Source: Myrmaecium sp. VS I D KN 1 (taxonomy: Eukaryota > Ascomycota > Dothideomycetes > Valsariales > Valsariaceae). Taken from it: 64,000 bases of DNA. How positions within the stretch are numbered: position 1 is the stretch's first letter; every line of letters starts with the position of its first letter. Below are positions 24,279-61,483 of this stretch, one piece after another. Where the stretch lies: contig JADQAV010000028.1 of assembly GCA_019775845.1 (NCBI GenBank), positions 744,001 through 808,000 of the forward strand, written 5' to 3'. A program made the translations under genes and the position numbers. The notes under the pieces were generated by a model, which did no database searches, was not told where the DNA came from, and was given only the letters and a program-made list of their open reading frames with translations.

Positions 24279-25811
24279 TTACTCAAGTATTTCATTGTCA
24301 ACGCCAATTTCCTGGCCCTTCTTGAACATGCAACTCCCAAACTTCCACACCTGCTCGACCTCCAACTTCCTCCAGCCGCCATGGACGCGCTGCAAGTCCA
24401 GAATGACGAGGTCGGCGTCGGCGTCCGGGTCGAGGCAGCCCTTGACGCCGTCCAGGCCGAGCAGGCGGGCAGGGGTCTCGGTGACGGCGCGGACGGCGTG
24501 GGGGACGGCGACGCCGGTCCAGTTGAGGAAGTTGCTGACGCACTCGACGAGCGCGATCGACGAGCCGGCGATCCGGCCGGTCTCGAGCTGGGTGAGGAGG
24601 GGGCCGCGCTTTCGGATGCGGCTGCCGCCGGCGTCAGCGGTCTTGTTGCCACGGGACCAGTCGTAGTCGCCGTCGGGGAGGCCGGCGAGGGCCATGGCGT
24701 CGGTGACGAGGACGAGGCCGGCCGGGTGGGCGGTCGCGGCGATCTTGACGGTGGTCGGGTGGAGGTGGATGCCGTCGGCGATGATGCCGAAGTAGGGTTT
24801 TTGGAGGGGTTGGAGAGGTTGGAAGGGCGGTGCGGGGGTGGAGGAGGAAGGCGTGGAGGGCGGCGATGAGGCTGCGGATGCGGATGCGGTGCTGGGGGCG
24901 GGAGGGAAGGTCTCGGTGCCGAGGAGGCCGAAGATGCCGGGGTTGCGGTGGTGGAGGGGCCGCATGGCGTTGAAGAGGTGGGTGATCATGGTCGCACCAG
25001 CGGTGATGCCGGCCAGGGCTTCCTCATAGGTCGCTTCCGAGTGGCCGATGCTCGCGATGAGCCGGTTGGGATTGGAGGCGGCCGTGAGGGAGGCGATGCA
25101 GTCGAGCGCGCCGGGCAGTTCAGGGGCGAGGGTGATGATTTTGGCGTTGGCGAGCGCGTTGGGACCGCCGTAGAAGGCGGACAGGGTGGCGAAGCCGTCG
25201 GGACCGGCCTCTTGAAGGAGGTGAGGGTCGTGGATGCCGTTCTTGGTTGGGGAGATGAAGGGGCCTTCGAGGTGGGCGCCGAGCGATTCCGCACCGTCTT
25301 GGGGGTTCCGCGAGGTCCCTGATGGCCCCAGGTATGGGAGTGTCTGGGCTCAATGTCAGTATGTGTTTGTGGTTTAGGACATTCCGGCCGGTATCGCTGA
25401 GGCGTCGCTGACCTGATGGTAGACCTCGCTCCTTTGGCTGATGAGAGTCGGCAGGTAGGAAGTCACTCCGGTTCGGATCAGCTTCTTGTTGACCCGTTTG
25501 ACGCCTTTGGCATAGGCAGCCATGTCTTCGGGCACGACGGAGAAGTCGCAGCTAAAGGCGCCATTGAGCTGGACGTCGATGAAGCCCGGTGCCACGATCT
25601 TGCCATCGAGGTCAATGACTTGGTCCGGGACGGCTCTCTGTCCGAAGAAGACCTCTTGGCTGTGGAGGATCTTGCCGGTGACGGAGCTGAACCAGAGGTC
25701 GTCCTGGATGAGCCTGTCGCCCTTGATCAAGAGGCAGTTGGTGAACTTGGTGATGCCGCTTCGGCTTGGAGAGCAGGACGAAGGAGGCGTGTGAGTGGTT
25801 ACGGACGGCAT
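24279..25811 (-). CDS. dac1: N-acetylglucosamine-6-phosphate deacetylase
   Basis: Exons 25811-25413 and 25343-24279 encode 487 residues; the 69-bp intron has a GTCAGC donor. This is the NagA amidohydrolase that turns GlcNAc-6-P into GlcN-6-P and acetate. Visible motifs are VAPGFIDVQLNGAFSCDF, the metal-site HLEGPF at 157-162, GHSEATYEEALAGI, HLFNAMRPLHHRNPG, the substrate loop DGIHLHP and the catalytic aspartate region VTDAMALAGLPDGDY. An insertion of about 40 residues (275-315) rich in Pro, Ser, Thr and Ala separates GIFGLLG from YFGIIADG, where bacterial NagA has a short loop. dac1 is head to head with nag3, and its substrate would be made by hxk3 in the same cluster. Confidence 0.95.
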
Positions 25812-27048
25812 TGGTAGGGGCAGTCCAAGCGATTGGGTGATATTCGGACGGAAAAGAAAGAGGGAAGAGAAGATAAGCTGGGAATCGTTCAGCGCGAGGA
25901 GAAAAAAGGCTTGAAGAAAGACGAGAGGAAAGGGAAGAAGTAGATAGCATTAGACACAGACATGTTGTCTATATCAATGAGCCGGCACGTTTGGCCCGGT
26001 GCACATGGCGTGAAGATTGATATTCATTGAGCCTGTTTCGTCATGGGCCAGTCAGGTCTACCTGAGTATCAGTCACAACCACATGCAGTGCAGACTGAGA
26101 ACCGGCCGACGCGACAAGTACGGTGCTAAATTCCGAGTAAGTAGTATGTAGCAGTGTAGTACAGGATTCGCAAGATTCCGGGAAGGGGTGGTGCTGTTCT
26201 GTTATCATGTTATCTGTATCCATCTCTCCCTGTACAAGCGGCTTCAGTTAGTACAGTACCTAGTACTAGTGACTGGAAACGCTCGCTTGGACTATCCTAT
26301 CAATTACGGTTGCAATCGAGGTGACCTCCAGCCGCGGAGATCAACGTCGGTGCGATGGGAGGAGGGGAGGAGGAATCTGCGTTCATTCCTCCGCACCTGG
26401 CACTGCGACCTTTACTACTATGTAACTACCCACCTATCACACTGTACTCGCTCGAGTACCTAGGTACCGTCGTATGTCGGACTCCCTCACTTGACGTTAC
26501 GGTTCTGTACTACCTTAGGGACTGAGGTGCCTGAGGTGGTATAGTAGCAGAGTCGCCCCGGTTCATCATGTCGGTTCGCTTCGGTTGCTCCCACCCTTGC
26601 CTGATAACGTTATCCGGACGTCGTCCCATCTCGATCCCTCCGTCCCATCGTTCCCCTTGGTCTCTTCCGTCGCAACCTCGGATCACTCCTGGTGACTTGC
26701 TGACGATACTCACCCTGCCCTGCCCGCTAAATTAGCGGATTCAGAGTAGCACTCCCGTCCCCACACCCCGGCCAACCCCCGGCCAAGGAGGTTCAGCACA
26801 TACTAGTATCTCACACCTCGTCTCTCGTATCTCAAATGCGACCTCACAGCTGAAGTGCATGCAGAGAGGCAGCGAGCGCGGCCACCCAGCACGACCCAAC
26901 CCTACCCTCCCCACACTATCCTACCTACCTCTCGACATTTCCATCAGCCTGTCCATCCGATCGAACCGGATCTCGACTCCTTTGGCGAGCTGGATCCAAC
27001 CTGCGGCCTGGCACGTTCCATGCAGCCCTACTGCTACTGCCGCCCGCC
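25812..27048. promoter_or_regulatory. divergent promoter of dac1 and nag3
   Basis: 1.24 kb between the opposite start codons of two GlcNAc genes. It holds both promoters and is the natural place for RON1-dependent sites. By eye I could not assign a specific binding motif, and no open frame here looks real. Confidence 0.55.
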
Positions 27049-30000
27049 ATGGTTGCTGAGGATCCCCCAAAGCTTGAACCCGTGTGGGATGATCTAGACA
27101 GGCAAGTCGCTCTTTATCCTCTCCATACGGTGTTAGTGACGCGCTAATGGTAAAGCTGGCAGGACCCTGGTATGACAGCCAATCCGTTAATGGTCATTGA
27201 GTCCCTCCGAGAAGCATGGCTAACATGGCTACTTTAGGGCCAACTGTTTATGATGGGCTTTGATGGCACCTCAGTAACCCCACAGATACGTTCCCTGATC
27301 GAAAATCACCATCTGGGCTCCATCCTCTTGACCGCCAAGAACTTGAAGTGTAAGCCCCCTTTCACTTGGCTATCTCAGACATAGCATGTTGAACGTTGCG
27401 CAGCTGCAGAGGACACCACCAAGCTGGTGTACGAGTTGCAGAAGATTGCCCACGATGCTGGTCATCCGGTGCCGCTGCTCATTGCTGTCGACCAGGAGAA
27501 TGGTGGAGTCAACAGTCTCTTCGACGAAATATACATTCGCCAGTACCCCAGTGCTATGGGGATAGCCGCCACGGGGTCTACCGACCTTGCTTTCGAAGTA
27601 GCAAAAGCAACCGCCCAGGAGATATCAGCATGTGGCATCAACATGATTATGGGGCCGTGCCTCGACGTACTCACCAACGCTCGGAACCAGCCGCTGGGGG
27701 TACGGACTGCCGGTGATGATCCCCAGGAGGTCTCCTCCTTCGGCGTGGCCTTCATGAAAGGCTACAAGGAAGGCGGCGTGGTGACATTGGGAAAGCATTT
27801 CCCTTCGTATGGCAATCTCGAGTTTCTGGGCTCCGCATTAGATGTACCCATCATCACCGAATCCTTGGAGCAACTCAGTCTCAGCGCGCTCATACCATAC
27901 CGCAACGCCATCTTGCAAGGCCTTGACTCGATGATGGTGGGCGGTTGTGCGATGTCCTCTGCCGGACTCAATATCATGCACGCATGCCTATCGGACCAGG
28001 TCGTGGAGGGCCTTCTCCGCTCAGATCTCAAATTCGATGGCGTGGTCGTTTCCGAGTGTCTGGAGATGGAAGCCTTGAGTCACAACATTGGCGTTGGGGG
28101 AGGCACAGTCATGGCAGTGAACGCAGGCTGCGATATTGTCCTCTTGTGCCGCGCTTACTCGGCTCAGCTGGAAGCAATTAATGGACTCAAACTTGGCATC
28201 GAGAATTCCATGATCACCAAGGAGCGCATTCAACTATCCCTAAGACGAGTTTTGGCCTTGAAAGCCAAATGCACGTCCTGGGAGAAGGCTCTCCACCCTC
28301 CTGGCATCAGCTTCCTGGAGAGACTGCAGCCATCGCATATAGCTCTGTCCCAGAAAGCATACAATAGCTCCATAACGGTGGTCCGGGACAAAAACCGGTT
28401 ACTACCGTTGTCCAATATTATCGACGCAGAGGAAGAACTGCTTCTCTTGACCCCTTTGGTCAAACCGCTGGCTGCTTCAGCTGCTTCACGCGCAATCACC
28501 GAAACCGTCACAGCAGGCTCTCCTGAACCGGCCGCCTGGGAACGGAGTGTCTCCGTTATGAGTGGTGAGCGGGTCTTCAGAGAGCTCGGCAGATCCTTAG
28601 CACGCCAAAGGAGCGGACGGGTCCTGCATACGTCCTACACAGCGAATGGCGTTAGGCCTGTCCACGAGAATCTCATCAACCGCGCCAGTGCTATCATTGT
28701 TGTCACGGCGGATGCGAACAGGAATCTCTATCAGAATGGCTTCACAAAGCATGTTTCGATGATTTGCAACATGCAGTATTCTGCTGGAGGTGAAAAGAGG
28801 GAGAAGCCACTGATAGTGGTGGCAGTGAGCTCGCCTTACGACTTTGCCATGGACCCATCCATCGGTACCTACATATGTACCTATGACTTCACGGAGACCG
28901 CATTAAACTCCCTGGTCAAGGTCCTGTATGGCGAATTAACCCCCACAGGATCTGTGCCAGGCACTATCAGCCAGAGCCAGAAACTTCACCAGTCCCGACA
29001 ACACTGGCTCGTGGAAATCTACAACGAAGAGAGAGACGCGCATGCCCTTGACAACCTTGTGAGGGTCGTAACAGAAGAGTCTCCGCCCAACCAGCGATCA
29101 GAACTTTCGGGGGCATCCTCCAGTTCTTTCATGCTGAACCACCCGGAGGTGATTGAGACTCACTTCGTAGTCCGGAACAGCAGCACACAATCTCTCTACG
29201 GCTTCTGCTCGACATACTTCTTCAAGTCCACGGGCACGGGCATCATCGGTGCACTATTTGTAGACCCTGGCCGCCGAAAGCTATCAATCGGGCATTCCCT
29301 TCACACTCGCGCGATCCGAACTCTACTTCAGAGGGAAGGTATCAAGAGATTCCAACTGGGCTCTCGTCTTCCCAGTATCTATCTCGGCGTGCCCACAACG
29401 CACTCCGCGGAAAGAAAGCGGATCCGGGCTTGGTTCGCCCATATGGGATGGAACATGGCTTTGTCACGTCCGGTCTGCAGCATGGTCGCGCGGAATCTGT
29501 CGACATGGGCACCCCCGGAGGGCATGGCGAAGAGTCTGGAGAGCGCTGGCGCCAAGTTCGACCTTGTCTACGGTTGGGAGTACTCGGGGCCGATTCTTGA
29601 CCATATCAAAACGAGCAATCGTCAAGGCCTGTCTGAGACGTACAAGCTGGCATTGATGGACCCGTCGGCATGCGGGATCATCCGCGCGAAACGGCCAGAC
29701 GACGGCGCACTGGTGGGGACAGTAGTGCTCTACAACATGAACTCACGGCTTGCGGAGTATGTCCCGGCGATGAAAGATCTTGGAGAGGTGACGGGCGGGA
29801 TCTCATCTCCAGTGATCTCCCCTGCGGTTGGTGAATATTCAACGCTGCTGCAGGGGTTGATTCTGCTCGGTATGCGCCAAATCAAGCAGCAGGGCTGCAA
29901 TGCCTGCATCTTGGACTATGTGAGTAGCATCCCACCGCTCTCGTCTGCACATTACCACCCCTTCTCGCGCAGCCCCTTCATTTGCTTTTTTGACATGTTT

Positions 30001-30161
30001 CTGACCATGTATGGCACCCACAGATGGATGGCGATGGCAGCGTAGATGGCCTCTCGGCCATGGGCTTCAGCGTGCTGCATAATTTCGAGGAGGTCAGCTG
30101 CGATGCAGCAACGTGGAATATGGTTCCCCATGGTCAAATGGAATCGGCGCGCGTCTGGTAG
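27049..30161 (+). CDS. nag3: GH3 glycosidase-like protein fused to tandem GNAT-like domains (NAG3)
   Basis: Five exons: 27049-27101, 27163-27169, 27238-27349, 27404-29919 and 30024-30161; 941 residues. Intron 1 has a GC donor and exon 2 is a 7-nt microexon; together they restore DLDRTLGQLFMMGFDGT. Residues about 17-370 form a NagZ-type GH3 barrel: DQENGGVNSL, RNQPLGVRTAGDDP and KHFPSYGN at 188-195 align with bacterial NagZ. However, the SDxLxM nucleophile motif reads SECLEM (Glu275), and the DSH acid/base dyad is not found after KHFP. Two acetyltransferase-like regions follow, about 640-750 (VDPGRRKLSIGHSLHTRAI) and 780-941. The same fusion occurs in fungal GlcNAc clusters under the name NAG3. 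There is no signal peptide, so it is probably cytosolic. Hydrolysis of GlcNAc-containing sugars is inferred, not proven. Confidence 0.9.
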
Positions 30162-31813
30162 GGGTGGTACCGTTCGTAGCCACGGGATTGGATCTGTTTT
30201 GTGATGCATCTTTGGACGAACGCTGGGAGAGCTGCACTTGGCGATTTGACGCCGTGACACGGCAGCTCCAGCGCCTCTTCCAGACAAATGAAGATAGGAA
30301 AGACAGGACAACGGCGCATTCTTGACGGTATAGAAGCCCGTTCACCTTGTCCTCGGCCTGCTGGATCAGTTCGTTGTTCACTTACGACGTCGGCGGACGG
30401 ACTATCGCAAAGGATTGGGGGGTGGGAGACCAGATGAAAATCGGGGTGATCCTACAGACTGGATGATTGGAAGCTGTGCACCAAATGCAGGCCGTTGGTC
30501 GGCTGTCAGCAATCACATGCGAGCCGGCGGGCGGTAAGAGCGAACGGGCGGGTGATAACCGGCGAGGGCTCTTGTGGTGATGGCTGGGTGAGGGCCCAGG
30601 GTCAGCTCCGATAGGCAGATTGCGGGGATGCCGAAGCCGAACGGACGGAGCGAGCGTTCCGGAAACGCGCCGAGGGTTACTAGTAGGTACTTGTCCGGTC
30701 CCCCTATCTCGGAAATCCGTCCTCTTTTAGGCTGCTTCTTGCATTTGCTCGATGCGTGTCGGATACAAATAAATGCATGCGCCTTTCTGAGTGAATCAAC
30801 CGTGGCCCCCAACGAGCTCCGTCATCAGTGAATGCGGCTCTCACCAAGGCGGCTCAGCAAGCGGGCCGGTGTTGTTGGTCGGTTGTCGGCGGGGGTCCGG
30901 GGATCCCCCTTGGGCCAAAGCCGGGCCCCCACCCCGGGGCTCGTCTGTCTTGCCGGCACTCCGCAAAAATCGACCGCCCATTTTTTTTATCTCCGTCATT
31001 CGCGGAGTTCGAAGTTCACGTTCCCTGGACATCATCGGCCACGCCGAGAGAGCAAAGGGAGCAGGAAAGGAATCGTGTGCGCGCATGACCCGGCCCGTCG
31101 TCCGGTTCCTGTTACGCAGACTGGGTCGCCGGCGTGGTCGCACCAAACATCCATCCATCCATCCACCCATCCCTCTTGCCCCCGGAGGATTTTTTTTTTT
31201 CGCAGCCGTGCCCTGAGCTGAGTGGACGGAGGGACAGCGTCGGTGTCGGTACAGCAAAAGTACCTGCCCTGCCTGGTGGTTACCTGCCTCCTCCCATCAC
31301 CTCCGGCGCAGGCAGGCAGTCAGGCAGTTGCTGCTGCGGGCACTCGCTCCTCCTCGTCCTCCCTCCTCATCCACCGTCACCGCTGCCATCCTCCTTTCCC
31401 CCCTCCTTCCTTTCCGGCTCCCATCCCGTCCTTCTCCGGCCAGACTCACGCCGGACCTGCTGTCGCTCTCTCCTTCCAGTGCCGTTATCGCCTTTTTTCC
31501 GGGCTACCGGCAGCGTGAAGTGAACAGGAAGCATCAGAGGCGCTGCCTCTCCCGCTGCGGAAATCCGTCCACCGTCCACCGTGCGCCCGCTGCCCGCTGC
31601 CCGCCCGTTCCCACTCCCACTCCCACTCCCACACTCGGCCTTCCCGGGGCGGCCTCCCCTCGCCTCACCATACCACACACCTCACCTCACCACGCCCGCC
31701 CGCCCTCCTCGCCGTCCGTCATCAGGCGTCGAACAGGAGAACCTAGCGGAGCGCATGTACACCGTCGTCCCTTCCCACCCATTCACTCCGTTGCCTTGTC
31801 CGTCTACCCGGCT
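30162..31813. promoter_or_regulatory. promoter and probable long 5' leader of ron1
   Basis: 1.65 kb from the nag3 stop to the ron1 start. The second half is strongly C/T-rich with short tandem motifs, for example CATC repeats near 31146 and TCCCAC repeats at about 31609-31632. That is typical of long leaders of fungal regulator genes. Several upstream ATGs occur; the nearest opens the overlapping frame at 31755. Confidence 0.5.
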
Positions 31814-31877
31814 ATGGAGGGCTTCGATACCATTACGATGTCCTACTTGGCGGCTCCCATGTCACTTTCCAACGTGA
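31755..31877 (+). promoter_or_regulatory. upstream ORF overlapping the ron1 start codon
   Basis: ATG at 31755 opens a 40-codon frame that stops at 31877, 64 bp past the ron1 ATG (31814) and in a different frame. Both ATGs have a purine at -3. If this leader is transcribed unspliced, translation of the uORF would suppress RON1 synthesis unless it is skipped. Confidence 0.45.
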
Positions 31878-33546
31878 CCGCGCCGGACCATCATCACCTC
31901 GGCGGCCCGCTCCTCTCCCTCGACAGCCTCGATCACCACTCGAACCACTACGACAACGAAACTTTCGTCGGGTACTTGCCCCTGTCCTTCCCCTCCCCCT
32001 TTCCCGTAAAGAGACGTTCAAGCGAGAGCTATCGCTGCGACGGTGCTGACAGCTACTTTCTTTCCGCAGGAGCGACGATGCGCCGCCGTTTGCGCCCCAG
32101 CATCATGCTCTGCAACAACCACACCCGCCGCCGATGAAGCGCTACTCCAGCACGTACGACGACCCGTTCTCCGATGCCATCAGCGCCTACGAACAACCCG
32201 TCCGACCGGACCAGAATGGCCCTGGAAGCCCCTCGATCGACCGTGACAACAAGCTGCTCAGCTTTTCCGCCCCGGTTTACCCGTACACCCTGCTCGACTA
32301 CACCTACCGGAGAACGTCCATCTCTCTGTCGGCGCAGCTACATGGCATGTTCTTCCTCGCCGAGTCGCCCTGGGCCTCCGCAGAGGGCGCCGCCGCGCCG
32401 CCGACGGAGCTGACCTGCTATCGACGGAATCTCTTCCAGATCACCGGAACCATCACCCTGCCGCGCACGCTCCAGTACATCATGACGGAGGCTGGAGAGC
32501 AGATCCCGATCGGGCGCCCAGAATTGACGATTTCGGCTACCGAGTCCGTCGAAGGCCATCCGGTGAAGATCATCTCGGTCCCGTGGAAGACGCCGGCGAG
32601 CAACGCCAGCGTGATTGAAGATAAGACCGAGAAGGAGCCGCCTTCGATCCCGCTCGATCTGAATAATGGCCAGGACATCGACTCGGACTTCGTCAACTTC
32701 CCCATCGCCTGGAAGAGGCTGCAGTTTCGGATCGCGACGGCCAACAACGGACGCAGGAAAGAGTTGCAGCAGCACTTCGTGGTTCGGTTGAAGGTCGTGG
32801 CCACCACCCCGAACGGCAGTCGGGTCACCGTGTGCGAGGTGCATTCCGGGGCCATCATCGTGCGCGGACGGAGTCCTCGGAACTTCCAATCCAGGAAGGA
32901 CTTACCCATCAGCAGTGGCGCCACCGTCGGACGGAAAGCTCACGCGCCGCATCCCACTCGAACTTCGACCGGGGACTCCAGCCATGGCGCGCCCACGGCC
33001 ACGCCCGAGCGACTCAAGCCGAATCCGTTGGACGTCCCTACCCTCTTCAGCTACGACTCCCACGACCTGCAAGTCTCACCGGACTTCTTCGACTGGAAGA
33101 TCCCTCCGGGGCACGGCGGCGCCATGACCGCGATTCCGCACGGCCTCTCCTACACGATGCAACCACCGGGAGATTATGCGCAAACCTCACCAGACATGCA
33201 AACGAAGCCGTCCGCACCTCGCGCCCCTCCCGCGCCCCTGCCCCTTTCCCTCACGGATGACGAGCCGACGAAATCGATGTCACCGTCCGAGGGGCCCAAG
33301 AAGGCGCCGAAACTGACGCCCGGCAGGCCGCCGTCCTTCTCCCTCAATCTAATCGCCAGCCCGGATGAGAGCGCGGATCTGCTGTATGAATACTTCCCAC
33401 TTGGACTGGACGACTGGATGCCGCCAGTGGACGCGGTCTATCGGCCGCACGTGGTGCATCACATGGCCAGCCTGCCGGGCGACTCGAAGGCGATGATGGG
33501 CGGTGGGAGGCGGAGCAAGCGGTACTTCAGCGAGGACCAGTCGTAA
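31814..33546 (+). CDS. ron1: Ndt80/PhoG-like transcription factor, regulator of GlcNAc catabolism (RON1)
   Basis: Exons 31814-31971 and 32070-33546 join in frame across a 98-bp intron, 544 residues. An Ndt80-type DNA-binding domain spans about 119-336: YTLLDYTYRRTSISLSAQLH, YRRNLFQITGTITLP, VNFPIAWKRLQFRIATANN and the closing GRSPRNFQSRKDLP. The flanks are His/Pro-rich and disordered. In Trichoderma and relatives an Ndt80-like factor named RON1 sits in the GlcNAc gene cluster and is required for induction of GlcNAc genes; position and domain make this the ortholog. It is distinct from the Ndt80 of meiosis. It lies downstream of nag3 on the same strand and is convergent with hxk3. An overlapping uORF covers the start codon. 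Confidence 0.9.
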
Positions 33547-35261
33547 CACTCGGGGAGGGAGAGCAGCGTTGCGTGTGTTTGGTCGCTTCGGCATGAGAGG
33601 ATATTCGTCCTGGCCTGTCCGTCATCTGGTGCATGGTTGCGGTGTGAGAGCGATCGGGCGCGCGTCGCGATGTCGTTGGTTGAGAGCGCAATCGGCACAT
33701 GAGTGTGTTTTTTCGAAAGAGTGAAAGGACAAGGCCCTCCTCCCTCCCATCCACCGGCAGGCAGCCTCACTGTCTATTTGTTCCTCTCTCTCCGCAATCC
33801 CCTCTGAAATTTATGACTGCGCGCCATGGCCGAACATCGGCCTTCTTTCGCTCCGCGGCTATCGTCGGGTCATCCGAGGACGGAGGCGGGCAGGGAAATG
33901 CATCTACCTATGCGTCTTGTCCCCCTCAGGAAGTATCTCTTGGGCGCGGTTCGAGAAGAGAACGTAGAAGAAAGGCAAACAGGGTCGAAAATCGCGGAGG
34001 GGAAAAAATATCGGAGAGACAAAGAAAAGATGGGAGAAGGCGGGGGTGGGTGAGGAAGGGGGATGACTGTCCGTCCGCCCGTCCGTTCGTTTGTTCGTTC
34101 GGTCGCCCGTTTCGTTCTTCGGGGAGGTGAAAGGGAACCCGTCCCGAACCGATCGACCGTCCGACCAACCGACCGACCGACGGGGCCACCGACCGAATCG
34201 GAGTTTCTCCATTTCGTTTCGTTCTTACGTACAGTACGTGACGTGACCTGACTGACGGGTAGGATCGCGGCAGCGGGCCGCGACAGAACGCAAAAGCCAT
34301 GGAGGCATGTCATCAGCCTTCGCATCTTCCATCCCCTTGCGTGCGGGAAGGAATGCGCAGCGGAAACGCACCCTCGCGCATCCTGTCCGTGACGGCAGCG
34401 AAAGAAATACCTACAGAAGGGAAACCAAAAAAAAAAAGAAATCGCGAACGACAGCGGCCCCGCCTCATTGACACAGTCCCCTCCCTTCTCATCCGTTCTC
34501 CTTTCCGTTGCCGACGGGGTTTTTGGAACGGTTGCCGTCAGCGCGCGGAAGGGAAAGGATGGCAGATGCCGAGGTGCTTGCTGCTGCTGCTGCTGCTGCT
34601 GCAGGGAAAGCCCTTGGGAACGGGAGGAGTAACTTCGGCGCGTCTGTTTCCCCCCGCTCGCCGATACCGGCGACTCGTGGTGGTGGTCGGGTGGTGGTGG
34701 GGTGCGGGTCTCGGACCGACCAGGCTGATGATTCCCGTCAGGTCAGCGCAGGCGGGGGGACCCTAACGGGAGGTCCCGGCCCGTCGAGGAACTTGCTTTT
34801 TTCTTCTCCGTCACCAACCGAATTAACAAAAAGTCTGTTTTATCTTTCTCTTCCTCTCTCTTTATAGGCGATCGGGAGAGCGAGTGTGTTTTTACTTCAC
34901 TTATTTTTTCTACGTGTGAAGGATGATATGTCAGGATAGGATGGGTATCTATATATTTTCTTCATATACCACAGAACCGAATATATTTTTCACCTACAGT
35001 ATATTCTTGCGGACGCGGAGACAGCATGAGAGCCTCCCTCATTTTTTTAGAAGGACATCGTCTCGACCATGATGGCATAACGATCACCTAGGAAGGGAAA
35101 AGGGAAAAAAAAAAAGAAAAAAAGGAACCTGTGCGCCATTCCCGCTGTGCCCCTCAGGGGCATCCATCGCCATGTAACGCCGTACGCTAAGAGGAATATC
35201 CAAGCAAGGGAAAAAAAGAGAAGAATGCGGATTACTGGGCTTGCCTTCCCGCCAAGCATCC
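33547..35261. other. convergent intergenic region between ron1 and hxk3
   Basis: 1.7 kb, unusually long for a tail-to-tail gap. It has CCGT/CGAC-type degenerate tetranucleotide runs (34066-34190), an approximately nine-copy CTG run (34578-34603), and T-rich stretches near 34800-34990 suited to 3' ends. Open frames here are short, overlapping and low in complexity. No gene is supported. Confidence 0.45.
34578..34603. repeat. (CTG)n microsatellite
   Basis: A perfect CTG run of about nine copies in non-coding sequence between ron1 and hxk3. Confidence 0.8.
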
Positions 35262-37143
35262 TCAGCAAGAGGAGTAAGACGAGCAACAAGCCGCAGCAAC
35301 CGCCGCGCCAAAGATGGCCGACTCATACGCCGGCTCAAGGACGACGACGGAGCGGGGTTCCGAACCTCCCAATGAGGACGACGACGACGACGGGGCAGCA
35401 ACGAGCTCGTCGAGGAAGGCCTGGGCGGTCGCGGCGAAGCCCGGGTACCGCTCGATGACGGAGCCGTTGCAGCCGATGGTGATGCGGCCGGCGTCGGCGA
35501 GGGAGGTCGGGGGCGCGCCCTCCTCGGCCGCGGCCCGGACGGAGAGCAGGGCGTGGATGCCGACGGCGAGGTAGGCGGCCGCGCGGCGGGTGACGAGCCG
35601 GGCGACGGTGCGGACGAGCAGGATTTCCGCGCAGCCGTACGGTCGGCTTAAGGGGTGGGTGGCGTGGAGCAGCGCGGTGGCGCGCGAGAGCGACGCTGTT
35701 TCGTCACTGTGGATGGTGTATTTGTTTAGTTATCTGGTGGAGACGGTCGCGGCCGCGGTCACATTGGTTTGGGAAGAAGTAGAACGTACGCTTCGATGAC
35801 AGCGATGGTTCCGGTGTCGAGCGCGTACGGCTCGAGGAACCGCGCGGGCACCTCGCCGCCGAACAGGCCAGCGGTCTGGATCGCGTCCAGGAGGACCAAC
35901 CGCACGATCTCGCCTAGGTAACGACCGCTGATCAGAAGCTCGAGCGGCTGGAAATCGGGCTGGCTGTGGTTGCGGTTCAACTGCTCGTCCCACCGGGTGA
36001 TCGGGTAGATGTTCTTTCCGAACATGCTGATCTCCGTGTTGACGAGCACGTGCGTAGCCTTGTCATGCCAGGACCGCGGCCGTGTGCCATATTTCTCCGG
36101 CGACAGGGCGGTGACGGGCAGATGTACGGCCATGTTGGTTCCCGTGCCCAGGATCAGTGCCAGTCGGGTAGCGCTGTCCTTGTAGGCTCGCGAAAGGAGG
36201 GTGGCCGTACCGTCGTTAACGATGGCATCCATCCGAACGTTAAGATTCTATTCCGCATATCAGCGACTGCAGGGAAAGAGGCCAAGGGGAGGCTTGCTCA
36301 CTTTCTTCTGACAGGACCGGATGATGGTGTCAGCCAGGTCCTGTCCGTCCAGGCCTTCCATTGCACGGAAGCCCTTTCCCATGGCGACCATTCTGCCGCT
36401 CCTCATGGACGTCTGTCTGTCGCGAGGTCAGTTTCATGACCGAGGCAAAACCAGGTCGAACCATGTCAATCAAGAGCAATACTGAGGCGGAAGAAGGCGA
36501 GAGGAGACACCCATCGTTACAGAGGGAGAGGAGGGAAGATTGCAACTCACTCAATAGTAAAGGACCACGCCAAGCCCATGGGCAACACGGCGTCCCCATG
36601 AGCAGCGCCTCTGACTTCCGGATCCGCCAGCGTCTCCGCGATCTTCTCCGCCATCCAGTCGAAGAAAGCCACGCCCCGGAGTTCGCGAACGGCATCGTCG
36701 ATCCGGTACGTCACCATCCGGACGATACGCATGGCTCGGTCTCCGGCGTCGACGCCATTGAGTTCCACCAGTGCGACCCGAAAGGTCGAGCCGCCCACAT
36801 CCAGGGCGAGATAGGCACCGCGCTCGCGGCCGGACGGCAAGGTGTGGTGGTAGGAAGGCAGCATGCACACGTTGCTCGACCGAAGCTTCTGCCGGAGCTG
36901 TTCCTGCAGCTTCCCGGAGACGGCCAGCAGGTTGGGGGTGCGGAGGGGAGCGTCGAACGAGGCTCGCACCTCGGCCAGGAAGTCGTCCATGGTCCGGTCG
37001 AAGGAGGGCTTGGGGATGGGCGGCGCATTGCGTTCACGAACGCGCTTCGGCGCCGGAAGGGAGGGGAAGACGGAGTGGACGAGGGAGGGGAGCGTGGCGA
37101 CCCTCTCCATGGCCGTGAGGAGGCTTTGCCAGAAGTCGAACAT
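35262..37143 (-). CDS. hxk3: hexokinase-family GlcNAc kinase (HXK3)
   Basis: Exons 37143-36551, 36416-36302, 36247-35790 and 35706-35262 encode 536 residues in frame. Hexokinase motifs are recognisable but divergent: phosphate-1 loop DVGGSTFRV at 115-123 (LDLGGTNxRV in glucose kinases), the sugar site EQTSMRSGRMVAMGKGF, the catalytic aspartate in NDGTATL (Asp248), and phosphate-2 loop LGTGTNM. The C-terminus has ITIGCNGSVIERYPGF and EPAYESAIFGAA. Retention of Asp248 argues for an active kinase rather than one of the inactive hexokinase-like regulators of Aspergillus. In fungal GlcNAc clusters HXK3 is the GlcNAc kinase making GlcNAc-6-P for DAC1; the divergence from glucose hexokinases fits that role. 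Function is from context plus motifs. Confidence 0.9.
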
Positions 37144-38222
37144 CGATGCCAGGGGCTCAGTGTGTCGGCCGGAAGCAGTAATCCGGGGAAGCGAACGGGA
37201 GCACAGACGCGCGGGTATCGTTCTCGCCGCGAGGTTTCAGGCGATGCGGCGCAGGATCTTGTCCAACCTTGGCACCGGAAGGGGGAAGAGGGAGTGAGTG
37301 AGTGGTGGAATGGCCAGCGGAAGCGAAGCAGCGGCGGCGGCAGCGGCGGCAGCGGCAGGTGGTGACGATGGGAAAGCAGGAGGGCGAGTGGTGACAGTGA
37401 GCCCGAGGTCTTACGTAGGAACTCAGCTCAGTCACGCACGATGGGGGGGAAGGAATTGAGTGACGGGATGCAAGAAGTGGGCGGAAGCAACAGCGGCGAG
37501 GAAACTTAATAGAGGGCTCGCTTCTCCGTAGCGACCGTAGCAGAGACGAAGACGAAGACGAAGAGGGAAAAGAACAAAGAATTGTGAAATGAAAAAAAAA
37601 AGGAAGAGGCCGGCCGCCCGTAACGCAACGTGAGAGAGAGACGGGGAGGAGTGGGAAAAAAGGCTACGGGCAACTACCGGGCGGACCCAGTCGACCGATG
37701 TCGCGGGGTGCGGCGATGCATGGCCGTTGTTGTATCGAACGGGACCGGAGGGGCCTGCCTGGGGCGATTGGCGACTGGTGACTGCCGATGGACGACGGAC
37801 GATGGGGGAGGAGGTGGGAGGGGGGATGGTAATGGGAATAACCTGATGTCGGGAAGTGGGAGGGAATCGCCGCGGAAGTGGACAGGAAGGTGTCATCGAA
37901 TTACTACTGTACTGACTGCACAGCTGTACCTGGGAAGGTCCAGCTCGGCGCTCGGTTGGCGGGGTGGGGGGAACCTAAGGAGAGGGAAATGGATGTGCAG
38001 GTGCAGGCGAACCCCATCCGAGAGCGGCGGCGGCATCTGGGCATCATCTGGGCAATGGAACTTGAATTGAAGTGAGTGTACGGGTAAAGGTACAGTACCT
38101 ATCTAGTAAAAAAGAAATACATACTTTAGGTAGGTACAGGAGATACTACCACATCAAGACGAGAGAATCCCCGAGCCCCCCCGCCGCCGCCGCGGAACGA
38201 TCCGTACGAGATCGGAAGGGTT

Positions 38223-38253
38223 GGATGGATGGATGGATGGATGGATGGATGGA
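38223..38253. repeat. (GGAT)n microsatellite
   Basis: About eight GGAT units in a row in the hxk3-ngt1 gap. Confidence 0.85.
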
Positions 38254-38934
38254 GGGTGGCATACTCAGCTTGTATGTACACTTAACGATGGCAGCAGGCA
38301 GTACGAAATACGGAGTCGTAGTAACGGTAAGGTGGTTTTCAGGGGTGGAAAACATGTAACCGTTCGATGGAACCCAAGGATCGACTAAGTTCCGTATCTC
38401 CCCATCCCCGCCCCGAGGCTGAGCCGCATGGCATGGTATGGATGGAGGGGCGAGAACATCCCACTCATTCCCTCGTTTTGCTTTGGCTTTCGAGCTCACT
38501 CATTCACTATTCTCTCGCTTCTTCTTTTTGCGGTCATTTGTTTTTTCTTGTCTTCATCCTGACAGCCATTGGCCACGTGCGAACGCATGGTCACCGACTA
38601 AACTGTAAGGGAGCCATGCGTATCTCCACGCCTTGCTTCCATCCAACAAACGGGCAGTGACGAACCTTGGCAAGAAGAGTCTCCCAAGAGCCGTGGTTTC
38701 GAAATCGATCCTTTTCTCTTCACACCGTACCGTCGTCTCGGCTTTCCTTGTTTTTGTCCTTTTTTTTGTAGATTTATGTTGAATTATCATCATTTTGACT
38801 GCACGCTGTATTGTACCTTCTTCTTCATCTGCTACCGTATACGCACATACATCCATCCATCTATATATGATACTAATCTCATGACCATTACTCGGATACC
38901 CCCTCCCCCCTGCCTTTCCCATGCCTTTCCCATG

Positions 38935-39028
38935 CGCCATGCGCCATGCGCCATGTCCCATGTCCTTGCAACGCATCCATGGCACGCATCCATGCCATAC
39001 ATCGCATCGCATCGCATCGCATAGCATC
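38935..39028. repeat. compound minisatellite: CGCCATG units, then GCATC units
   Basis: Three exact CGCCATG units with variants on both sides (38935-38962) are followed, after about 40 bp, by four to five GCATC units (39003-39028). Confidence 0.7.
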
Positions 39029-39384
39029 GATGCACACACGTGGGGATGCCCCACACTTACACCCCCCCCCCCCCCCAAAGTAAGGAACCAAAAAGAAGAT
39101 CAAAAATCCGATCGGGATTTCATTAATGTGGGTATGAATTGTTGGTATGGATGGATGTTCCCTCTCTTCATCATCATGAGATAAAATCATTACATGGGAA
39201 GAAATCATGACAGAAAATAAAAAGACGAGAGGGGGGAGGGGGGGCAAACAAGGGAAAAAAAGAAAAGGAAAATACAAGAAGCAATCTTTCAACAACACGC
39301 TTCCCCCCTTCCCCCCTCCAAATATAGACTCCCCAAGAAGCGCTCCTCTCACATTTTCATAACGCCCTCTACTCTCTCTCCCAA

Positions 39385-41082
39385 TTAAGCAGGTTGCGCC
39401 CCCGCCCCCGCCCCCGCCCCCGCCCCCGCCCCCGCCACCGCCGCCGCCACCTCCTTCACCTTGCCCGACGGCACGACATCCTCGACCGTCTCGTCGGAGA
39501 ACTTGAGGTCCTCCTCGAGCGGGACGGTGTCGCGGACCTTCCAGAGGATGACGGGGGCGGCGAAGAGGAGCCCCGCGACGAGCAGGGCCCAGCACGAGGC
39601 GAACATGTTCATGTACGGCACCTTCCGGTCGTCCAGCCCCCACATGATCGCCCCGCCCGCCGACTGGATCCCTTTGTAGAAGCCGGCGAAGTTGGCCAGC
39701 TTGCGCCCGTTGTTCGTGAGGGCGCCCATGTACCTGCGCAGAGGTCAGTATGCGGTTAATTGATCGATGGATCTGGCTGCGGCTGCCGGGCTGCACCCAC
39801 CAGTAGACGACGGTTTGCCAGGAAGCATCGTAGAAGCCGTAGAAGATGTAGAGGGTGAACGGGCCGCCGAACCCGTCGTCCGACCAGTCGATCGGGTGGT
39901 AGGTGCTCTCGGCGATGTCGGCGCGGGTGTACGTCTTCTGGAAGTCGTACCCGCCGCCCCAGATGACCATCGTGAGGACGAAGAGGATGACCCAGGCGAT
40001 CTTGGCGCGGACGGTGCGCCGGAGCGACTTGATGTCGAGGATGTAGCCCATGATGAAGGCGCCGATGATCTGCATCGTGTAGTAGACGACCGTGTTGAGC
40101 GCCTTGGTGCGGGTGTTGAACTTGGCCCCGTTGATGTCGTTGAACTGGTAGGTGTAGAACCAGTTCGACGCCAGGAACATGGGGAAGAGCAGCAGGATGT
40201 ACGGGTCCGTGAAGAAGGTCTCCCACAGGCCCAGCAGCTCCGTCTTCCAGGACGGGTGCTTCATCACGATGACGTGCGAGCCGTCCGACCGGATCACGCT
40301 CTTCGCGTTGACCAGGCAGAGCGCCAACGCGGCGCCGATCAGGGTGAGGACGAGGAAGCCGATGTAGGTGCCGTCGGAGACGGTCTGGTTCGTTGTGACG
40401 TGGATGTTCTGTCCGAGCGGAATCTGCACGACCATGTTAGCTTTCCTGGTCCGTTGCTCGAGACAGCACACCCCGGTGGTTTGAGCCTTACCAGGCCACC
40501 GATGACCGCGCCCAGGTTGAAGATCATCCAGAACCAGGAGATGTATTTCCCCTTGGATTCTTCAGGCGGATAGGACATCATGATGGTGCCTTGAGCGCAC
40601 CACAGCACGCCTGCGCAGACGCCGAGGTAGGCGCCGGCAAAGATGGTGAAGCCGTAGTTGTGGTCGTGGCTGAAGGACAGGAAGGAGGCCACATAGATGG
40701 AATATCCGGTGCCGCCCACGGCCAACGCCGGTTTCACCCCGAGCCAGTTGGTGATGGTGCCGGCAAAGAAGCCGACGACGGCGAAGGTGGTGTACAGGGC
40801 GACGTTGGCCTTGTTCGCGGCCGAGGGATCGACCTGCCCGCCGCCGCCCATGCCGCTCAGCGCATTGTACATGCCCGGGCACATGAAGCAGACGAAGGAG
40901 ACCATGAACAGTTGGATCTGCGGCGAGGCATACCAGGGGATGTAGAGACCCCCGATCCGGCGGTCCTTGTACTTCCACGACTTGGGGACCTCGACCGTGC
41001 CGGTCTCTTCGGCGGAGTAGGAGTGCGAGTCGCCCGCGGAGGTGATCTCCGGAGCCGCTTCCTTCTCGGTAGGAGTCGCCAT
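39385..41082 (-). CDS. ngt1: GlcNAc transporter, UNC93/DUF895-type major facilitator
   Basis: Exons 41082-40492, 40423-39801 and 39733-39385 encode 520 residues. Hydrophobic helices run throughout (SPQIQLFMVSFVCFMCPGMY, NVALYTTFAVVGFFAGTITN, TYIGFLVLTLIGAALALCLV, KIAWVILFVLTMVIWGGGYD), with the GMYNALSGMGGGG loop typical of the UNC93-like DUF895 branch of the MFS. The N- and C-termini face the cytosol; the C-terminus ends in an Ala-Gly repeat coded by the GC-rich run at about 39399-39436. Members of this group stand in fungal GlcNAc clusters as NGT1, the proton-linked GlcNAc importer. I assign the substrate from the cluster, not from sequence. The gene is divergent from dam1. Confidence 0.87.
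39399..39436 (-). repeat. 6-bp GC repeat coding Ala-Gly
   Basis: Consecutive CCCCCG units, in frame at the 3' end of ngt1, give an (Ala-Gly)n tail in the transporter. Confidence 0.85.
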
Positions 41083-43181
41083 GGGATGCGGTCAATATTC
41101 ACGGCGCGGGGGTGAAGTTCGAAAAGCAAACAAAAAAATACTGAGCGAGCAGGATGACTCGGCCCGTTCCAAATTCAGCGGGGAGGAGGAGTTGGCCGTG
41201 AATAAATTGCTCGGATGGACCTGCTCACGGGAAATCCGACGCGGTGTTCGGTTCGGTAACGAGAGCAGCGGTCGGACAGAGCACGAGGGGGGCGGAGCGG
41301 AAGGCAGCCTGTCGCGGGAGGGACAATCTTAACTTTATAAATCGGCGGTGCCGGGGGGAGGAGGAGAAGGAGGAGGAGGACAGCCAGGACCACCGCTTCT
41401 CCGCAATAAAAGAAGGGCAGCGCAGAGCGGCGCAGATAGGGCGGATGCACGCGACACCACCGGGCGTGCAGGAGAATGGGAGAGGGAAGGAGGATCGTGT
41501 GGCCCATCACGGGTTGACCCCTGGAGGGGGTGAGAATCCTGTGGGTGGTGGACTGCTCGACCCGACGGTTACGGGTAATCGGCGCGGCAGGGGGATGGGA
41601 TGGCGTCGGACGAGGCCTCGGTCGTGTGGCTGGAGGTTTTCCATCCCTCCCAGTCCCGTTCCACTCCCGCCCTGCGATCGCCCAGCTTACACGAGGGCAG
41701 GTGGCAGCTTATCAGCGAGTGGGAGGGAGAGAGAGCCAGAGAGAGCCAGTGGGAGCCTCGAAACCCCTCGAGCTGGCGTCCGCTGGCGTGAGCACCACGA
41801 CGGTTTGGGGGCCCTCGGGCTCGGAAAGCTGGGCAAAACTGGGCAAACTGGGGGTGGACTTGGGACTTGGTCCGGAGTGTGGAGAAGGGGCGGACTCGGT
41901 CAGGGACTAGTGCTCGGTACAGCAATTTGCCTTATCACGGATGTCTGATAACCACACCTAATCTCGTATGCTACATCGTATGTTAATCCATAAGTCATAT
42001 TTAGCACTTGTATACAGTATACAGGATAAGAGTGAGGTATACGGCGGAGGAGTCCTGGGCATGTCTACTATTTCCTCGACTGGCGCTTCTCTGACTTCCC
42101 CGGCCTGGGCTGCTAATGTAGTGAGAACCTTCAGGGACCGGTCCGCCCGCCAACCACTCTTGAACCTGAGCTCCCGTCCCCCTCTCACCTTTCCAAAGCT
42201 CTAAAGCCACTCGGGCGGTCGTTCCCCTCTCGAGTGCTACACCATTTCTCCCGTTACGTTCGGCGGCTCTCACTGCGACCGTGCAACCATGCCTTCGCCT
42301 TATCGCCTCTGACCTGCCAATGCTGTATCCCCTTCCGCATCTGCCTTTCACGTTCACGATCACACACCACCCTCCTTCGTTGTTCCACGACGCTGCAACC
42401 GTTGGGCGTCGTACAGCATCGCACATCCTCTTTCCCGGGGGGTACGCTGAAGGCTTGGAGATGTAACGTAACCCTTCTCCCTGGCATGGCCAAACTCGAG
42501 CAGCTTCCTTCCATCTTCCTCGAGCAGGGTAGCAAGTACGAGGCGGCATGCGAGGGGTGGTGGCTCGCCACGGCACTGCACATGTTCGTTCGGCTATCCT
42601 TATCAGCGCGTCTCGATTGCCGCGTCCTCTCCACGTTTCCCACCCTCCTCCTCTTCACTCGTCGATTACTACGACATTCTCACATGGTATCCGAATCTGA
42701 TCTGCGCCGGATCACCCAACTTCCATGATAGCAATGTAGCAGCATTAGCAAGCATCGGGCTCCGTATAGACGGTGCCTACTGAAGGTGGTAGGTCACACT
42801 GGAAGATAACGTCGTTCAGGTGAATGTGTTCACAACAACTCCTACCCGTACGGTGGGGAGGGGAACATCCTTCTCCAGTCCTACTTGCACCCTTCGCCTT
42901 GACCTTCCCTCCCCAACAGCAACATCCTCGGGGAACACAGCGATGCTACCAATGATGTCCTGCGCACCTGGCTTCGGCGGCATCACGGTCACTAGCTTGT
43001 ATGACGTGAGAAGCTCCCTCATGTACCGTATATACCGCGCGAGCCCGGCATGATTGCAGCTGCGTGTTCGGGGAATTGTCGCCAACATCATCAGCCAGAA
43101 GGGTGTCTCGCGTGCCACAGACGTTTCGAACTTCTTCACAATGTATGTCGCTCGCCTGCAGTTCCTCCGTCGTGCTTCTTT
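41083..43181. promoter_or_regulatory. divergent promoter of ngt1 and dam1
   Basis: 2.1 kb between the start codons of the transporter and the deaminase. The first 700 bp carry GGA/GAG-rich tracts. Its dam1-proximal end contains the possible small minus-strand gene at 42745-43051. RON1 sites are expected but were not identified. Confidence 0.5.
42745..43051 (-). CDS. possible small three-exon gene, 66 residues, unknown
   Basis: Candidate only. Exons 43051-43027, 42967-42846 and 42798-42745 have GT-AG boundaries, introns of 59 and 47 bp (the second with a CTGAAC branch-point-like sequence), and one continuous 66-codon frame. The product starts MPGSRGIYGAQDIIGSIAVF, has a basic patch (GEGRSRRRV) and ends VGTVYTEPDAC. 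It has no signal peptide, membrane segment or motif I know. Two introns falling in frame in 300 bp is suggestive, but chance or a gene relic is quite possible. It overlaps the dam1 promoter on the opposite strand. Confidence 0.28.
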
Positions 43182-44603
43182 ATGCTAAGAGATGCATCAA
43201 GGAGAGTCATCATTAGAGAGAATCCGGAGGGAGCCTCCAGATACATTGCAGATTATATCATTCGTGAGCGATGTCTTCCTGCAGCGTTACTGTTGCACAT
43301 GGCCTGACCACCTTAAGATCGTATCAACACCTTTGAACCGACTCCGGAGAAGCCCTTCGTCCTTGGTCTTCCGACTGGAAGCAGTCCCGTCCTAGTTTAT
43401 AAGTACCTTGTCGCCGCACATAAGAAGGGCGAGGTGTCTTTCAAGAATGTGATCACCTTCAATATGGTATGTGATCGTCCAATGGACAATTGTAGATACG
43501 CCGGCCGATACTCCCTCGCATTCTCGAAGAGCCTTTCATCTTGCATTTGTTGATATCCGTGCCTGTAGGACGAGTATGTCGGCATCCCTCGGGAACACCC
43601 TGAGAGCTATCACAGCTTCATGTACAAGCACTTCTTCTCCCACGTCGACGTTGACCCGGAGAACGTAAACATCTTGAACGGCAACGCACCCGACCTGGAG
43701 GCGGAGTGCATCGCCTACGAGGAAAAGATCAAGCTCGTCGGCGGGATCGAGTTGTTTCTCGGTGGCATTGGCCCAGACGGCCACATTGCGTTCAATGAGC
43801 CGGGCTCCAGCCTCCAGTCCAGAACCAGAGTGAAGACGCTGGCGTATGACACCATCCTGGCGAACTCGAGATTCTTTAACAATGATCTGGCGCAAGTCCC
43901 TCGTATGGCATTGACGGTTGGTGTCCAAACGGTTCTAGATGTAAGCAAACTCTCACTGGAGGAATTGGCGTGCGCTAAGTGAAGGACAGGCCCGGGAAGT
44001 TGTGGTGATCATCACAGGTGCCCACAAAGCGCTCGCCCTGCAGAAGTGCCTCGAGGGCGGCATTAATCATATATGGACACTTTCCAGCCTCCAACTCCAC
44101 CCACATCCCATGTTCGTGGTGGACGAGGACGCTACCCTCGAACTTCAAGTGAAGACCGTCAAGGTCAGTCCACATTCCTTCTTTCTTCCCTCTCTCCCTG
44201 TTTACCGCCCCACCATCGTCGGAGTGATTACTGACACTGGGCTGGGAAACAACAGTATTTCAAGAGCATCGAAAAGGTCGCCTTAGAGTGCGGCTTCAAC
44301 CAGCACCTCTCCCCAGAAGTCCGCACCGGCGCCAAACGCTCCGTCATCGTCAAGGACCTGCGCCAGAGCCCCGCCCAGAGCCCGCGCAGCCCACGCAGCC
44401 AGCAGCAAGCAAACACCCTTCAGCTCGCGGCGCCCAAGCCCGACGTCGTCCTCCGGTCGGTCACGCCCGAGCTGATCCCGGACCGGATGGCCTCGCGCAT
44501 TTCCCCCGAGTCGGCGGTTCCTCCGCTGCCTGAGATCGGTCCGGCTGTGGAGGATGCGCCGTTCCAGCGGATGGGTGCCCGGGTCGCTCCTCTGGCAGGT
44601 TAA
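43182..44603 (+). CDS. dam1: glucosamine-6-phosphate deaminase/isomerase
   Basis: Five exons: 43182-43263, 43318-43466, 43569-43940, 43990-44163 and 44256-44603; 374 residues. This is the NagB-type enzyme that converts GlcN-6-P to fructose-6-P and ammonia, the last step of the pathway. Motifs: [15 protein letters not shown] phosphate loop, [20 protein letters not shown] (Asp78), [19 protein letters not shown] with His149 and Glu154 of the ring-opening/proton-transfer site, and [20 protein letters not shown]. The C-terminal 80 residues beyond the enzyme core ([14 protein letters not shown] onward) are Pro/Ser-rich and absent from bacterial NagB. The first exon start ([17 protein letters not shown]) is the only in-frame ATG near the core; fungal relatives often start closer to the VIIREN strand, so the true N-terminus may differ slightly. 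Confidence 0.93.
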
Positions 44604-60900: not shown

Positions 60901-61483
60901 CGCCCGAGGAGTCCGCTTGCTGATAATCTACGTCCGTGTCTTCTCGCTGCTCCTGATTCCCGGTTTGATCACCAGCTGCATCAATCAAAGGACTGACCGA
61001 AGGATTCTGCGCTGTAGGGCGCCGTCTAAGGGTGGACGCCTGCCTCTTAAGGGACCCCGTTGCTGACTTCGCTTGCTTTTGCCTCTGTGCTAGATCCTTG
61101 TCTACTTCTTCTTGCGCATCATCTACAGAAAACTCCTGTCCTCTGTGAGGCAGGTACGATGATGTTGTTCGCCTGGCGATGTTCGGTTTTTTGGGTTTCT
61201 GTGGAAAAGCTTCCGGTGGAGCAGCTGGTGGACGAGTGGAGGTCGTCAGACTGAAAGAACCTTTTGATCGATCAGCGTGAATGTCAAGTCGCTATACGTA
61301 TTGGTACCCACCATATCCAGCTGATGGCTGCGGCTGTTTTCTCTTTGACGCGTCGGCATGCGAGGGTGTATTTGCGTACGAATCGAACACACCTGGGAGA
61401 TTGGACGAATCTGAAAGCTGTTGTGGCTCGTCTTGGGTTGGAATATTCTCCTGGGGCGGAGTGCCTATGCCGGAATTCGACAT
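57925..61483 (-). CDS. vnx1: vacuolar cation/H+ antiporter, VNX1 type
   Basis: Five exons: 61483-61308, 61250-59480, 59425-58478, 58421-58259 and 58205-57925; 1112 residues. The N-terminal 200 residues are polar. Membrane parts include LFNFAWSLLFGWWLALLAAL and FFLVFYGLLTPALFLVSGI. The two CaCA repeats are present in the altered form of this branch: INAFFSTIVEVFLYCVALKE before LVEGSIIGSIFAGILFLPG, and VPNTTEFLNAISFAMNGNIA before LSMEIGSAYALQV. Yeast Vnx1 exchanges Na+ and K+ for protons at the vacuole. A cysteine-bearing luminal loop (LNCHACVQPS) and a long cytosolic loop separate the halves. The intron after 59480 has a GTCTGT donor; the acceptor could alternatively be 6 bp later. It is divergent from rpt6. 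Confidence 0.92.

Follow-up and report, generated by a model that had tools for sequence, protein, structure and literature searches.

A compact six-gene N-acetylglucosamine catabolic cluster, with its putative sensor and regulator genes, in the genome of a Myrmaecium species

Genes for the use of N-acetylglucosamine (GlcNAc), the monomer of chitin, have been described as linked in several ascomycetes. Kappel et al. 2015 surveyed 18 Ascomycota for six genes and reported that the catabolic genes are clustered, often together with ron1 and nag3, and that RON1 dependence could be shown in Trichoderma reesei (PMC4950302). In Histoplasma capsulatum, NGT1, HXK1, DAC1 and NAG1 share one region with GIT7 (Gilmore et al. 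2013, PMC3778022), which is an orthologue of NGS1 (PMC5063960). In Candida albicans, a GH3-GNAT sensor, Ngs1, works with an Ndt80-like partner, Rep1 (PMC5063960). We describe a locus of this kind in Myrmaecium sp. VS I D KN 1, in a 64-kb stretch of DNA (G000:C19:744001-808000, hereafter the window) from an assembly of 25.66 Mb in 66 contigs; positions are those of the window.

Six linked genes and their described counterparts

The genes dac1, ngs1 (nag3), ron1, hxk3, ngt1 and dam1 lie in that order within 20.3 kb (24279-44603), each with an intact frame. Gene models were built from splice signals and homology and are predicted from DNA alone; once spliced, each of the six reads without interruption from its start codon to its stop codon, and 15 of their 16 introns (49-134 nt) are GT-AG, the remaining one, in NGS1, being GC-AG. 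Each of the six proteins matches its expected Pfam family above the gathering cut-off, namely, in gene order, Amidohydro_1; Glyco_hydro_3 and Acetyltransf_1; NDT80_PhoG; Hexokinase_1 and Hexokinase_2; UNC-93 and MFS_1; and Glucosamine_iso. The genes and the two divergent intergenic regions are as follows.

24279..25811, minus strand: dac1, predicted GlcNAc-6-phosphate deacetylase, 487 residues; exons 25413-25811 and 24279-25343 (spliced model, PF01979, PDB match 7nut)
25812..27048: gap between the divergent genes dac1 and ngs1, which may be a shared control region
27049..30161, plus strand: ngs1 (nag3), GH3-GNAT protein, 941 residues; exons 27049-27101, 27163-27169 (7 nt), 27238-27349, 27404-29919 and 30024-30161 (PF00933, PF00583, PDB match 4zm6)
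31814..33546, plus strand: ron1, Ndt80-like regulator, 544 residues; exons 31814-31971 and 32070-33546 (PF05224, E 1.2e-39)
35262..37143, minus strand: hxk3, hexokinase-family protein and predicted GlcNAc kinase, 536 residues; exons 36551-37143, 36302-36416, 35790-36247 and 35262-35706 (PF00349, PF03727; substrate from linkage)
39385..41082, minus strand: ngt1, predicted GlcNAc:H+ symporter, 520 residues; exons 40492-41082, 39801-40423 and 39385-39733 (PF05978, PF07690; substrate from linkage)
41083..43140: gap between the divergent genes ngt1 and dam1, which may be a shared control region (weak lead: GATAAG 5 times, 0.5 expected)
43141..44603, plus strand: dam1, predicted glucosamine-6-phosphate deaminase, 368 residues; exons 43141-43142 (only the first two letters, AT, of the start codon), 43202-43263, 43318-43466, 43569-43940, 43990-44163 and 44256-44603 (TIGR00502 nagB, PDB match 1ne7)

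An initial annotation of this DNA had listed six genes with this order, these orientations and these ends, from the stop of dac1 at 24279 to that of dam1 at 44603, and the open models and Pfam matches bear it out. We regard the locus, with high confidence, as a complete GlcNAc utilisation cluster of the filamentous ascomycete type, comprising four catabolic steps and probable RON1-NGS1 control. The linkage is not a matter of chance: out of a 25.66-Mb genome, the same 20 kb hold the single close match to NGT1, the DAC1 match whose VTD motif is complete and the one deaminase-like PF01182 member.

The likeness to the ascomycete cluster that the initial annotation had drawn also holds, in that the hxk3, dac1 and dam1 families are linked and accompanied by ron1 and nag3, and published clusters hold the same six families (PMC4950302). 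While ron1 and nag3 are often present in those clusters, both are present here. For T. reesei, ngt1 is named beside "all GlcNAc cluster genes", whereas here it lies within the cluster with the other five, so the arrangement of all six may differ from the Trichoderma one (PMC4950302). The cluster of Aspergillus nidulans is split by an inversion (PMC4950302), unlike the present one, and the four H. capsulatum genes extend over 75 kb (PMC3778022), compared with six over 20.3 kb. NGS1 (PMC5063960) and NGT1 (PMC3778022) of C. albicans lie outside its catabolic cluster, while both lie inside this one. The genes of Aspergillus fumigatus A1163 are described as non-clustered, though a table and legend of the same paper name near-consecutive loci (PMC12584764).

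The cluster is thus genuine, seems intact and is of an ordinary, known kind; what we add are corrected gene models, the probable reassignment of NAG3 as NGS1, an apparent case of NGT1 without NGT2 and a probable split DAM1 start codon. With it the fungus has every gene needed to use the monomer of chitin, putative sensor and regulator included. Among chitinolytic genes, the genome has at least one GH20 match and at least six GH18 matches at four or more loci (lower bounds), presumably a small set compared with other fungi.

Predicted enzymes and transporter

Deacetylase and deaminase chemistry is predicted for DAC1 and DAM1 from their families. All ten PDB matches of DAC1 are named GlcNAc-6-phosphate deacetylase, the best being 7nut (E 1.9e-81), and the protein contains E159, H234, H255 and D348, which we take to be the metal-binding and catalytic residues. 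The DAC1 match in the genome that has a complete catalytic VTD motif is the one in the 20-kb cluster. A second DAC1-like locus (L038, C51:118433-119938) shows 28-31% identity over two pieces, or 31-42% over three shorter pieces in another comparison, with VTN in place of the catalytic VTD and THPLYST in place of THLFNAM. The open reading frames (ORFs) beside it, judged by eye, resemble an acyl-CoA synthetase and a tricalbin, so it does not look like part of a second cluster. Residues 282-316 of DAC1 (24795-24899, minus strand) form a low-complexity insert of alanine, serine and proline between two stretches that align with 7nut.

DAM1 exceeds the TIGR00502 nagB cut-off (396.8 bits against 236.9), aligns over residues 1-259 with 1ne7 from the first residue of that structure (E 5.1e-116) and has the deaminase catalytic residues D72, D141, H143 and E148. 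It is the only deaminase-like PF01182 member of the genome; the other PF01182 locus, on contig C53, is 21% identical to DAM1 and is taken for a putative 6-phosphogluconolactonase.

HXK3 keeps Asp248, which we assume to be the hexokinase catalytic aspartate. The genome has four further hexokinase loci; identity to these is 25-31% over aligned stretches, so HXK3 did not arise from any of them by recent duplication. For both HXK3 and NGT1, chiefly the linkage to dac1 and dam1, together with the published clusters, leads us to predict a GlcNAc kinase and a GlcNAc transporter, respectively.

No close paralogue of NGT1 was found in the 25.66-Mb genome, its only close match lying in the cluster, and the paralogues found elsewhere are 28-30% (contig C15) and 22-31% (contig C43) identical. 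H. capsulatum Ngt2 matches C. albicans Ngt1 at E 8.2e-90 (PMC3778022), and set against this published value the C15 and C43 paralogues do not look like Ngt2. The gene ngt1 therefore seems to be clustered in a fungus without NGT2, whereas H. capsulatum has NGT2 as well (PMC3778022). According to the same study, Ngt1 lies beside other GlcNAc genes in many fungi that have both transporters and does not in Ngt1-only species. Provided that NGT2 is truly absent, this genome appears to be an exception to that correlation, although later surveys may hold others, and as a compact example with all six genes and no obvious NGT2 it bears on the statement made about Ngt1-only species (PMC3778022). The C-terminus of NGT1 (39385-39450, minus strand) is an Ala-Gly repeat encoded by a GGGGGC-type repeat and is possibly variable between strains.

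The putative sensor, RON1 and control of the cluster

The initial annotation had called the second gene nag3; the GH3-GNAT family assignment stands, but the name NGS1 fits better. The protein has a GH3 domain (PF00933, E 1.4e-60) and a GNAT domain (PF00583, 24.2 bits against a cut-off of 20.7), and its best PDB match is 4zm6 (E 7.3e-89), which is RmNag of Rhizomucor miehei. RmNag, the closest solved structure, shares the GH3 plus GNAT architecture and is an active N-acetylglucosaminidase that uses Asp190, His192 and Asp268 (PMC4680927), whereas the window protein has Gly200 and Ala202 at the Asp-His dyad positions and Glu275, glutamate for aspartate, at the nucleophile position. The same kind of change (Gly206, Asp208, Glu282) is found in T. 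reesei NAG3, which has been renamed NGS1 and described as a sensor (PMC12176254). The GlcNAc-binding residues of C. albicans Ngs1 (D74, R145, K175 and H176, PMC5063960) are kept as D87, R158, K188 and H189, positions that were placed by motif context and the 4zm6 alignment. At the acetyltransferase end, V677 and G687 probably correspond to the acetyl-CoA positions V685 and G695 of T. reesei NGS1 (PMC12176254), judging from their ten-residue spacing and the RmNag alignment. Taken together, these features suggest that NAG3 is probably NGS1, a GlcNAc sensor-acetyltransferase, and not a chitobiase.

Alternatively, the protein could be a working glycosidase inside the cell that releases GlcNAc from chitobiose, in which case the cluster would cover use of the disaccharide as well as the monomer. 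This is unlikely given that both dyad residues and the nucleophile of RmNag are replaced, at positions that also vary in the T. reesei sensor (PMC12176254). What speaks for it is the GH3 fold match, the activity of RmNag itself (PMC4680927) and the observation of Su et al. that Pezizomycotina orthologues may still be active, since they keep a glutamate with an acid/base role in beta-glucosidases (PMC5063960). Across the genome, GH3 gives 11 matches at nine loci, and the four loci compared with NGS1 (L019-L022), out of the eight others, are 22-29% identical to it over parts.

Two points of the NGS1 model differ from a simple reading of the ORFs. An end at 30045, where the unspliced ORF stops, was ruled out because a GTGAGT..CACAG intron gives a longer C-terminus ending at 30161, and the residues after this last intron are, we assume, conserved in other fungi. 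Near the start, a 7-nt exon (27163-27169, in the region 27102-27237) follows the GC-AG intron; this exon and the split DAM1 start codon described below are traps for automatic annotation.

RON1 carries an Ndt80/PhoG DNA-binding domain (PF05224, E 1.2e-39) and is one of two Ndt80-family loci found in the genome, the other, on contig C10, matching yeast Ndt80 in PDB (E 5.9e-9). With these proteins in place, NGT1 would import GlcNAc with protons, HXK3 would phosphorylate it, DAC1 would take off the acetyl group, and DAM1 would deaminate and isomerise the resulting glucosamine-6-phosphate to fructose-6-phosphate. RON1 would sit on the cluster promoters and carry NGS1, whose C-terminal acetyltransferase would be turned on when GlcNAc binds the dead GH3 domain, so that promoter histones would be acetylated and the cluster induced. 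Such a RON1-NGS1 switch is likely by analogy with C. albicans and T. reesei. In C. albicans, Rep1, the RON1 orthologue, holds Ngs1 on promoters, GlcNAc activates the acetyltransferase and promoter histones are acetylated (PMC5063960); a GH3-GNAT putative sensor, an Ndt80-like putative partner and the GlcNAc-binding residues are all found in this locus as well.

Several results weigh against this reading of the six genes. On the enzyme side, DAC1 falls below the cut-offs of two curated nagA models (TIGR00221, 215.1 bits against 225.65; NF008371, 178.9 against 483), and DAM1 falls below that of the narrower NF001685 (388.5 bits against 513). In PDB, HXK3 comes closest to glucose hexokinases (2nzt, Hexokinase-2, E 5.3e-73), and all 46 matches are named hexokinase, glucokinase or phosphotransferase, with no GlcNAc kinase named among them. 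On the regulatory side, exon 2 of RON1 has no PDB match at E 0.001, yeast Ndt80 included. We also counted seven motifs (CRCAAA, CRCAAAW, GNCRCAAAW, TTTGTG, SYGGRG, GATAAG and CCAAT) in four promoter regions, the hxk3 region being 1500 bp of its 2241-bp gap, against a background of 100 dinucleotide shuffles (28 tests). The Ndt80-type core CRCAAA was not clearly enriched in these regions (observed/expected 0/0.5, 3/1.4, 1/1.0 and 0/1.5). Few k-mers are common to all four regions, and their numbers lie within the shuffle range: 25 7-mers (mean 15.2, maximum 25), two 8-mers (mean 0.5, maximum 3) and one 9-mer (mean 0.0, maximum 2), the shared 8- and 9-mers being CT-rich. The Ndt80 core may, however, be the wrong target, since the motif reported for Rep1 of C. 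albicans is rich in adenine and does not resemble CACAAA (PMC9925049).

The sole outlier of the 28 tests was GATAAG, with five copies in the ngt1/dam1 gap (41708-42604) against 0.5 expected. This excess is only a weak lead because the broader HGATAR occurs eight times there, compared with about four expected by length (134 in the whole 64 kb); input from a GATA factor (nitrogen) at this gap is possible. The palindrome TAACGTTA, modelled on a C. albicans GAL motif, was found as one copy, at 26605, too little to argue from. The initial annotation had proposed the divergent pairs dac1/ngs1 and ngt1/dam1 as having shared control regions; both pairs are indeed divergent and sharing is plausible, but a convincing shared motif was not found.

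This last result speaks for another reading, in which the genes are neighbours by inheritance only, with no co-regulation in this fungus, and RON1 acts mainly as the starvation and protease regulator XprG. That reading is very unlikely to be right, because GlcNAc induces the orthologues in T. reesei (six, PMC4950302), H. capsulatum (five, PMC3778022) and A. fumigatus (three, PMC12584764) and all six genes are contiguous with no Pfam-recognised gene inserted, even though XprG, the orthologue of RON1, has a role in starvation in A. nidulans (PMC4950302) and GlcNAc induces the A. fumigatus A1163 genes although these are described as non-clustered (PMC12584764).

The dam1 start codon and the surroundings of the cluster

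The favoured DAM1 model starts at an ATG that is cut by an intron (AT^G), with AT at 43141-43142 and G at 43202, separated by a 59-nt intron with the donor GTATGT and the acceptor CAAG. With this start, the first residue of the protein is aligned to the first residue of both 1ne7 and 1cd5, presumably the human and E. coli enzymes, and the catalytic residues fall at 72, 141, 143 and 148; we prefer it on these grounds and because the donor is GTATGT and CACAATG seems the better start context. DAM1 therefore probably starts at the split codon. Translation from the in-frame ATG at 43182, which no intron divides, would yield a protein of 374 residues, six more, and is less favoured.

Were this intron to stay in the transcript, the ATG would begin an out-of-frame ORF of 15 codons that ends in TAA. 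Splicing of this intron could, on a highly speculative view that we think improbable, switch the final step of GlcNAc breakdown on or off. In a search of the literature for start codons split or interrupted by an intron, or for a deaminase gene start codon together with an intron, nothing relevant was found, judging by titles and abstracts.

The five internal gaps measure 1237, 1652, 1715, 2241 and 2058 bp, in keeping with the 1.2-2.2 kb given in the initial annotation; its further statement that these are longer than most gaps outside was compared with the two flanking gaps only, both of which are shorter (about 362 bp, ~0.36 kb, on the dac1 side and about 772 bp, ~0.77 kb, on the dam1 side), with the flanking genes only partly modelled. 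That no unrelated gene lies inside the cluster was upheld, in that none of the 100 intergenic ORFs of at least 60 residues (stop-to-stop, five internal gaps) had a Pfam match at E 0.01, a scan that sees Pfam-domain genes only.

Beyond the borders, no amino-sugar family was found among 20 window ORFs scanned (19 out of 33 with 180 or more residues, plus one of 157 residues), and within this sample no further GlcNAc gene was found. The outer neighbour on the dac1 side is a gene of the sodium/calcium exchanger family, ending at 23916 in the frame taken, and that on the dam1 side encodes a CRAL-TRIO protein and starts at 45376. Sodium/calcium exchanger domains occur at two places in the window, 22267-23916 and 58403-61291, the latter being spread over two ORFs, with a YccF domain as well in one of the pair.

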